From assembly GCA_009785175.1 (NCBI GenBank), contig WQWV01000008.1, forward strand, positions 1-32,822: a stretch of DNA of 32,822 nucleotides, written 5' to 3'. Positions 2,061 through 32,822 of the stretch are shown here, one piece after another; position 1 is the stretch's first letter; each line of letters opens with the position of its first letter. A program made the translations under genes and the position numbers. Origin of the DNA: Alphaproteobacteria bacterium (GTDB lineage: Bacteria > Pseudomonadota > Alphaproteobacteria > Rs-D84 > CACZYB01). The notes beneath the pieces were generated by a model. That model did not search any database. It saw nothing but the letters and a program-made list of their open reading frames with translations, and was not told where the DNA came from.

Positions 2061-2090
2061 TTGACAAAACGTTGCGGGGGGGGGTAAAGT
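2061..2090 (+). promoter_or_regulatory. Promoter with a 9-G tract in the spacer (candidate phase-variable)
   Basis: A consensus -35 TTGACA (2061-2066) is followed by nine mixed bases (AAACGTTGC), nine G (2076-2084) and the -10 TAAAGT (2085-2090). The 18-base spacer would become the optimal 17 by losing one G. The expected start of transcription is near 2097, with the HNH gene starting at 2122. An identical arrangement drives the convergent gene at 2720. Homopolymer slippage in a promoter spacer is an established way to switch expression; that it operates here is inferred. Confidence 0.65.
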
Positions 2091-2121
2091 TTGTCTAGAT
2101 ATTGAAAACTGGGTGAAAAAC

Positions 2122-2553
2122 ATGACTCCTATTAAAAAAGAGGGAAAGCCGCGCAAGATTGGTGTCCGGGCGCTTAAGAGAAAGTGGCTTCAGGATATTA
2201 AAGACGGTATAATCCTAAAGTGTTGTATCTGTCAAGAAATTATCGAGGAGTGGGAGCTTACCGCCGATCATATCGAGCCGCTTGAGGCCGGGGGCGACAG
2301 TTTTTCCGAGAATTTGGGGCCGGCGCATTTGAGTTGCAACGCATTCAAGGCCAATCTGCCGAACGAAGTCGTGCAGCAGCTTCTTCATATTTTTCCCGAC
2401 ATAAGCTTCTGGTGCAATCTTCAGGTTAAGGGCATGCTTAATCCGATGTATAAGCATTGGTCGAAAATAAATAAGGCGAAGGCAGCAGATGATAAAATCA
2501 CAAAGGCACACGAAAAGGTTTTTGTGAAGCCGCAGGAGAAGCAGAAGAGTTAG
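2122..2553 (+). CDS. HNH endonuclease family protein
   Basis: A 143-residue protein with a canonical HNH nuclease core: a CxxC zinc knuckle (CCICQEI), then ADHIEPLEAGG, then N-x5-HLSCN. Together these give the beta-beta-alpha-metal fold with the metal- and DNA-binding histidines. The N-terminus is strongly basic (KKEGKPRKIGVRALKRKW) and the C-terminal tail is lysine-rich. No methylase, specificity subunit or phage terminase neighbour is present, so it is a solitary HNH protein. It may be a defence nuclease or a homing-type remnant. ATG 2122 is preferred, though GTG 2113 is an alternative. Transcription starts from a poly-G spacer promoter and ends at a terminator shared with the convergent small gene. 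Confidence 0.8.
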   Translation: MTPIKKEGKPRKIGVRALKRKWLQDIKDGIILKCCICQEIIEEWELTADHIEPLEAGGDSFSENLGPAHLSCNAFKANLPNEVVQQLLHIFPDISFWCNLQVKGMLNPMYKHWSKINKAKAADDKITKAHEKVFVKPQEKQKS

Positions 2554-2560
2554 AAAAAAT

Positions 2561-2585
2561 CCCCCGCCGAAGCGGGGGTAATTTT
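2561..2585. terminator. Bidirectional intrinsic terminator
   Basis: The stem CCCCCGC/GCGGGGG with loop CGAA is followed by TAATTTTTA on the plus strand and by ATTTTTTC on the minus strand. It lies between two convergent genes (stops at 2553 and 2598) and can serve both. Confidence 0.8.
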
Positions 2586-2597
2586 TATAAAACGCGA

Positions 2598-2720
2598 TTA
2601 GCGGCTGCCTTTGCCTTTTTTGATGGCGGCCAATTTGGCGGCGGCTTTGTTGGTTTTATTTTTCGAAGGGGCATGCTTGTATCCCTTTACGCCGGCTTTG
2701 GTCTTGAGCTTTTGTTTCAT
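2598..2720 (-). CDS. 40-residue highly basic peptide, unknown function
   Basis: The start is ATG 2720, with AAAGGA about eight bases upstream and a promoter ending at 2754. The product is 40 residues with a very high content of lysine and alanine (KLKTKAGVKGYKHAPS, then an alanine-lysine helix AAAKLAAIKK and a GKGSR end). The composition resembles small ribosomal or nucleoid proteins (some likeness to the start of L35), but I cannot assign it to a family. It is convergent with the HNH gene and has the same unusual promoter type, so the two may form a unit. Nucleic-acid binding is an inference from charge. Confidence 0.6.
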   Translation of the reverse strand: MKQKLKTKAGVKGYKHAPSKNKTNKAAAKLAAIKKGKGSR

Positions 2721-2753
2721 GCTTTTATTCCTTTGTTTTGGTTTTGTGTGGAC

Positions 2754-2783
2754 AGAATACCCCCCCCCATAACCTTTTGTCAA
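2754..2783 (-). promoter_or_regulatory. Second poly-G spacer promoter (candidate phase-variable)
   Basis: Read on the minus strand: TTGACA (2783-2778), nine mixed bases AAAGGTTAT, nine G (2768-2760), then -10 TATTCT (2759-2754). Spacer length, tract length and tract position are the same as at 2061-2090, and the two N9 segments agree at six of nine bases (AAA.GTT). The leader to the ATG at 2720 is about 27 bases. Confidence 0.65.
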
Positions 2784-20560: not shown

Positions 20561-21169
20561 TTATTTTTGCGCGGCGAGTTCGGCGAAGATCTTGCCTATG
20601 TGCGAATCGGGGGTCATGTCGGTTTCTCCGATAGTCTTGGCGGTGCAAGGCGAGTTCGATTGGGTGCGGAAGTAATTTTGGAGCCCATATAGAGCGATCG
20701 GATTTTTGCCGTCGCCGCTTGGCTTCCACTCGTTTTTCCTTAGCCTTAGAATGTCGGTGCCGATATAGGAAACCTCTTTGCCCTCGGGGACGCAGGTATC
20801 GATCAAAAGGCCGTCCGCGGTCGCGAACCAGACGTGATTCGCGAAGACTCTCATATTCCTCATAAATGAATATCCTATATAGAGGCCTATGCCAAGCCGG
20901 TCGATCACGCCGCCGAATTCGGAAAGTATGGCGAACGAGTTGTGGTTGCAATTAAACTCCCTCATGCCGAGGCCGTATGAAACTTCGTGGAAGCGGCGGT
21001 GGTTGCCGGCGATGATCTCGCCGTCTAGATTGCGTTGCTCATCGTTGTAAAACACGTCGCAACATGTGGAGAGTCCGTCTATTTCAGTTATGAAGCCGTA
21101 TTGATCGACCGCGATCCCGTCCGTGCGGGGGGGGGTAGAAACCAAGGTTGGTGTGGGCCGAACTAACAT
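20561..21169 (-). CDS. Protein of unknown function with a C9 tract near its start
   Basis: A 202-residue protein, not recognised. ATG 21169 lies nine bases after the upstream stop codon, so translation is likely coupled. Codons 12-15 consist of a run of nine C (21135-21127 on this strand), so slippage would put almost the whole protein out of frame. In the other frame the bases before the tract also read plausibly (GIDVSSAHTNLGFY), so the annotated N-terminus is uncertain. The body contains FNCNHNSFAIL, ANHVWFATADGLLIDTC and several cysteines. The spacing of cysteine, histidine and aspartate resembles papain-like or transglutaminase-like hydrolases, but this is only suggestive. No signal peptide is seen. 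Confidence 0.6.
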   Translation of the reverse strand: MLVRPTPTLVSTPPRTDGIAVDQYGFITEIDGLSTCCDVFYNDEQRNLDGEIIAGNHRRFHEVSYGLGMREFNCNHNSFAILSEFGGVIDRLGIGLYIGYSFMRNMRVFANHVWFATADGLLIDTCVPEGKEVSYIGTDILRLRKNEWKPSGDGKNPIALYGLQNYFRTQSNSPCTAKTIGETDMTPDSHIGKIFAELAAQK

Positions 21170-32649: not shown

Positions 32650-32822
32650 CGGCTTGACGAGGCGGCGAATGCGATCGAGATTTAACCGCAAACTGCAAAG
32701 CACTCGCACCGCCCACACAAACGCCAACTGCTCTTGGCGTTTTGGGGCAAGATTCTATATGAGATTCAAAAAAAGGGGGGCGCCTTCGGCGTAGCTATAA
32801 ATCCCTCCTGCAAAGCTTGCGC

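Follow-up and report, generated by a model that had tools for sequence, protein, structure and literature searches.

Paired nine-G spacer promoters in an alphaproteobacterial contig belong to a large family that may act as a poly-G phase-variation system

In Neisseria meningitidis, a poly-G tract lies between the -10 and -35 hexamers of the porA promoter, and a one-base change in the tract alters transcription (PMC3899988, PMC7864442). Transcription of porA is lost once the optimal 17-nt spacing is shortened (PMC7864442). Among Campylobacter poly-G tracts, 53% have nine Gs and 26% have ten (PMC6321876). At the tpr genes of Treponema pallidum, poly-G tracts occur at the promoters and their length alters transcription. 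Here we describe promoters of a related kind, beginning with two sites in a 32,822-nt stretch (the window) that makes up contig C8 of an Alphaproteobacteria bacterium assembly of 1,135,683 bases in 58 contigs. We lean towards reading the two sites as members of a set of about 52 sigma-70-type promoters that would together form a large poly-G phase-variation system. No literature report of such poly-G promoter switching was found for this lineage.

Promoter 1 occupies positions 2061-2090 of the plus strand and reads TTGACA AAACGTTGC GGGGGGGGG TAAAGT: the -35 hexamer at 2061-2066, nine mixed bases (N9) at 2067-2075, nine Gs (G9) at 2076-2084, and the -10 hexamer TAAAGT at 2085-2090, with a GTCTA element at 2093-2097. 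Promoter 2 lies on the minus strand at 2783-2754 and reads TTGACA AAAGGTTAT GGGGGGGGG TATTCT, with the -35 hexamer at 2783-2778, N9 at 2777-2769, G9 at 2768-2760, the -10 hexamer TATTCT at 2759-2754, and a GTCCA element at 2753-2749. A first-pass annotation of the window had reported this pair, each with an 18-bp spacer, and direct reading bears it out; TTGACA-N9-G9-TANNNT had no match in 100 dinucleotide-preserving shuffles of the window, even with one mismatch tolerated. The 26-nt arms of the two promoters are 88% complementary, and at both an ATG follows about 38 nt beyond the G9 tract.

The same annotation had proposed a whole-genome search for such promoters, and had not seen that its pair was 2 of 52. 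Promoter counts come from pattern searches of the genomes followed by reading of the retrieved stretches of the window's genome. The pattern matched about 49 sites there, against 0-1 for a reversed-pattern control, and reading gave 52 promoters. An ATG follows most of them at a distance of up to about 60 nt, and a Shine-Dalgarno-like run is present at many. The G run is nine long in 47, ten in four and eight in one. The gap from TTGACA to the tract is 6, 7, 8, 9 or 10 nt in 12, 3, 1, 30 and 6 promoters, which gives two main settings: N9+G9 (class A, 18-bp spacer), to which both window promoters belong, and N6+G9 (class B, 15-bp spacer). The class A logo is C-TTGACAAAA-tctt.c-G9-TA..tT followed by GTCYA; that of class B is C-TTGACAAA.cac-G9-TARAAT. 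A GTCNA element lies within 15 nt downstream of 37 of the 52 promoters and in 0 of 52 control intervals.

As in porA, the poly-G tract sits between the two hexamers of a sigma-70-type promoter, here at 52 sites. Where porA is one gene, though, this family comprises about 52 candidate phase-variable promoters of one layout, nearly always with nine Gs and with two spacer settings. It shares with T. pallidum tpr the placement of poly-G at promoters, but differs in that the tract lies wholly within the spacer.

Two other genomes carry the family. One is of the same genus (Rickettsiales bacterium isolate Gx485_bin9, G001), with gaps of 6/7/8/9/10 nt in 7/3/0/7/1 promoters; the other is more distant (Alphaproteobacteria bacterium Emb289P3bin18, G031), with 22 such promoters and gaps in 3/0/0/14/2. 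Both use mostly G9. To judge by their isolate names, these metagenome-assembled genomes (MAGs) probably come from termite gut; they are presumably alphaproteobacterial, a placement that leans partly on GAPDH sequences. Few or no G9-spacer promoters occur in other families of the order or in 141 other alphaproteobacterial genomes. Phage origin was considered and set aside: of 2.9 million viral contigs only four had a match, and comparison of the 52 downstream proteins with PHROGs revealed no phage gene set. The suggestion in the first-pass annotation that the promoters form a family spread by copying is right as to the family. Copying does not appear to be the main route of spread, because only a few of the 52 share flanks with another promoter, and both the spacers and the genes behind them are mostly different.

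A spacer of 17 bp is optimal between -35 and -10 hexamers. Among the 89 promoters of the three genomes, spacers of 14, 15, 16, 17, 18, 19 and 20 bp number 1, 21, 6, 2, 46, 11 and 2, a deficit at 17 bp of p ~1e-6 against a uniform expectation. TTGACA promoters of the window's genome that lack a G tract have 17 bp in 6 of 25 cases, compared with 2 of 89 G-tract promoters (Fisher p=0.001). In the proposed mechanism, each spacer would end in a poly-G tract near a slippage equilibrium of nine, and one G lost or gained would shift the spacer by one base. Instead of the 17-bp optimum, most promoters have spacers of 18-19 or 15-16 bp, which would lie at the limits of the working range; one slip would then be expected to turn a gene from active to weak or silent, or back. 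On an assumed range of about 16-18 bp, an 18-bp promoter would be ON and turned OFF by one added G, a 15-bp promoter would be OFF and turned ON by one added G, and a 17-bp promoter would not be switchable in one step. The edges of the working range would thus account for the two spacer settings. The first-pass annotation held that an 18-bp spacer becomes optimal on losing one G; this suits part of the family, but the N6 class with its 15-bp spacers needs Gs to be added. We infer that the tracts switch in living cells, that expression changes as a result, and that the spacing keeps the promoters poised. The outcome would be random, reversible on/off control of mostly accessory genes.

These data could also describe a fixed structural class of promoter, in which G9 forms stiff, A-like DNA that sets promoter strength without switching, and 18 bp containing G9 behaves much like a normal 17-bp spacer. 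The length of nine in 47 of 52 promoters, the TA directly after the tract in nearly all, the commonest spacer of 18 bp, and the recurrence of one layout in three genomes before mostly unrelated genes all suit this explanation. It leaves unexplained why 15-bp spacers recur as a class in each of the three genomes, and why G9 is also the most frequent tract length in coding sequences and in dispersed repeats. Nor does it sit well with the practical absence of the promoters from 141 other alphaproteobacterial genomes and their occurrence in only four viral contigs. We regard a fixed structural class as unlikely, though it is the strongest rival to phase variation.

A second alternative is a regulon, in which a dedicated sigma factor, or a regulator, would bind G9 (perhaps together with GTCYA), with two binding registers at 15 and 18 bp. 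The strong logo with its -35 extension TTGACAAAA, the G9 abutting TA and the downstream GTCNA (37/52 versus 0/52 in the control) would be expected of such a site. The window's genome also has extra sigma-like genes; contig C48 (locus L175) holds two sigma-70 region-4 matches, one of them downstream of the single promoter with eight Gs. However, both hexamers are of plain sigma-70 type, and G9 tracts occur no less often outside promoters than within them. No lineage-specific sigma factor accompanies the promoters in G031, a possibly incomplete genome, where 22 of them occur alongside just one match to sigma-70 region 4. This makes a dedicated sigma factor unlikely, and we give the regulon as a whole little credence.

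The peak at nine Gs extends beyond promoters in the window's genome. Over 396 kb, G runs of 5, 6, 7, 8, 9, 10 and 12 number 268, 22, 1, 4, 42, 7 and 1. The excess of tracts of at least eight Gs and the peak at nine resemble a Campylobacter-like phasome, and 121 exact G9 tracts occur genome-wide. Among 79 sampled non-promoter tracts of at least eight Gs, 63 are G9, ten G10 and four G8, with G11 and G12 present too. Promoter spacers hold 52 of 131 sampled long tracts (~40%), a share that sets this genome apart from Campylobacter, as does the sharper peak at nine (110/131). Long G runs in most of the relatives read are likewise almost all nine long, whatever comes after. The first-pass annotation would have taken a constant length of nine as grounds for rejecting switching. 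Length is indeed nearly constant between loci, yet it discriminates poorly, because the proven phase-variable poly-G tracts of Campylobacter also peak at nine (PMC6321876).

A dispersed, hairpin-bearing repeat, ttaaG6-10cgcc..ggcgTAGCTATAAATC, was seen in the window at 32775-32780 and at loci L160, L161, L162, L163, L253 and L271. The G runs of this family are 6, 6, 6, 8, 9 (six copies) and 10 long, a spread to be expected from slippage around an equilibrium of about nine. Two copies with identical flanks over 68+111 nt (179) differ only in having G9 or G10, and tract length therefore changes, although the G10 copy could be misassembled. Homopolymer slippage, as the first-pass annotation supposed, is thus plausible, with this one pair as a case of one-base change. 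A pair of promoters on contigs C3 and C6 (G10A versus G9TA) was rejected as a further case, since a T-to-G change explains it better.

The peak at nine in these repeats (6,6,6,8,9x6,10) and in coding tracts alike could mean that the promoters are a mutational by-product, with poly-G drifting to nine anywhere and spacers tolerating it without function. Mere drift should hardly place 52 tracts directly beside a -10 hexamer with a perfect or near-perfect -35 hexamer, mostly at 6 or 9 nt, nor produce a 17-bp deficit of about p=1e-6, and we consider this explanation very improbable.

Coding sequences would contribute to the proposed phase-variation system as well. A third G9 tract in the window, overlooked in the first-pass annotation, lies at 21127-21135 of the plus strand. 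It reads as C9 in the coding direction of a minus-strand open reading frame (20561-21169), close to the N-terminal end of the product. This frame encodes 202 aa with nine bases in the tract, and 26 and 28 aa with eight and ten. Elsewhere in the genome, G9 tracts lie in surface-type genes (GT2, GT8, GT61, two TupA-like ATP-grasp, choline-kinase-like) and in SDR, NAPRTase, NUDIX and PPDK-like genes. In most cases the existing tract length leaves the reading frame open and a change of +/-1 closes it; at C1:89051 and C1:154470 the frame is closed as it stands, and +/-1 would open it. This pattern is that of translational contingency loci, and G tracts peaking at nine, some in surface-glycan genes and some out of frame, are also features of the Campylobacter phasome. 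Internal promoters behind the coding tracts were considered, but no TTGACA was seen at the right distance there. Promoter tracts and tracts in surface-glycan-type genes would then make up one large phase-variable gene set. If the tracts switch, candidate phase-variable loci number about 100, roughly half of which would act on transcription, a high count for a 1.1-Mb alphaproteobacterium.

Most genes behind the G9 promoters are orphan or accessory. About 14 of the 52 downstream proteins have a Pfam match: two DapB-like, cytidylate kinase, Ldh_2, radical SAM, SPFH, sigma-factor-like, AIR-synthase-like, GNAT, HNH and a few more. We read the genes as accessory because the DapB-like gene that was searched for was found only in the window's genome among 15 genomes, and so in none of 14 relatives, and because the HNH gene is only weakly matched. 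Accessory genes fit switching better than housekeeping genes would. G031 has a DapB behind a G9 promoter (28.9% identity).

Several observations weigh against phase variation. Some of the downstream genes look metabolic (the two DapB-like genes, cytidylate kinase and the AIR-synthase-like gene). The length of nine is sharper in promoters (47/52) than outside them (63/79), and roughly every second G9 tract outside promoters is also followed by TA, for no obvious reason. MutS is present, which also led us to reject loss of mismatch repair as a cause. Finally, the data are assemblies of incomplete MAGs, one genome per species.

The TA follows directly after 30 of 63 non-promoter G9 tracts (18 of 27 in a first sample) compared with 11 of 290 G5-G6 runs (~4%). 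We considered G9TA as a DNA-level signal, such as an uptake sequence, KOPS or a mobile-element target, and set this aside: TA is enriched, but there is no fixed motif. GTCNA occurs within 15 nt after some non-promoter G9 tracts of the window's genome.

Outside Alphaproteobacteria, the matches listed include like promoters in Spirochaetales, Clostridia, Saccharibacteria and other groups. Clostridiales bacterium SIG415 (G061), Ca. Avimicrobium (G050), a Saccharibacteria genome (G035) and Spirochaetales have TTGACA, a short N part, about nine Gs and TANNNT, several per genome. The 1.2-Mb genome of SIG415 has about 36 near-identical copies of TTGACAA[TC][TC]GGCTG9TAGAAT, many near contig starts as if at repeated gene cassettes; the N parts in the window's genome, in contrast, differ between sites. 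Tract lengths in Ca. Avimicrobium range over 6-10, unlike those here. Among the matches listed from other phyla, spacers of 16, 17, 18, 19 and 20 bp number 29, 12, 34, 38 and 3, from a scan that allowed the gaps for 16-20 bp equally and with matches that are phylogenetically non-independent; 17 bp again dips between 16 and 18-19. It is tempting to speculate that across several phyla poly-G-spacer promoters have been selected off 17 bp, one base from the edge, and that some 50 accessory genes in the lineage of the window follow this design, 18 bp resting ON and 15 bp resting OFF. We offer this only tentatively and would not bet on it. If true, it would illustrate how selection may tune the switching of a promoter rather than its strength. 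A G tract beside the -10 hexamer with a spacer of 15 or 18-19 bp, not 17, could then serve as a signature of switchable promoters in uncultured bacteria.

The gene behind promoter 1 (2122-2553, plus strand) encodes a 143-aa HNH-endonuclease-like protein (Pfam HNH PF01844, E=6.4e-5) that has at best weak homologues in relatives. Behind promoter 2 is a lysine-rich, basic orphan protein of 40 aa (2720-2598, minus strand), for which a Pfam search gave no match. The two genes converge on a bidirectional terminator-like hairpin at 2561-2578.

Other homopolymers occupy comparable positions. Two C-tract spacers, with the tract orientation reversed, were read on the minus strand of contig C1: TTGACATA-C9-gttctgtc-TATAAT at 150768 and TTGACTA-C12-gccagc-TATAAT at 39767. 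A promoter-like TTGAC-A9-TA element stands at 374-400 of the window (plus strand), with three like sites in contig C2; its form is mostly GAAAATAG-TTGAC-A9-TAnATTGTAT, and the window and C2 copies all have exactly nine As.
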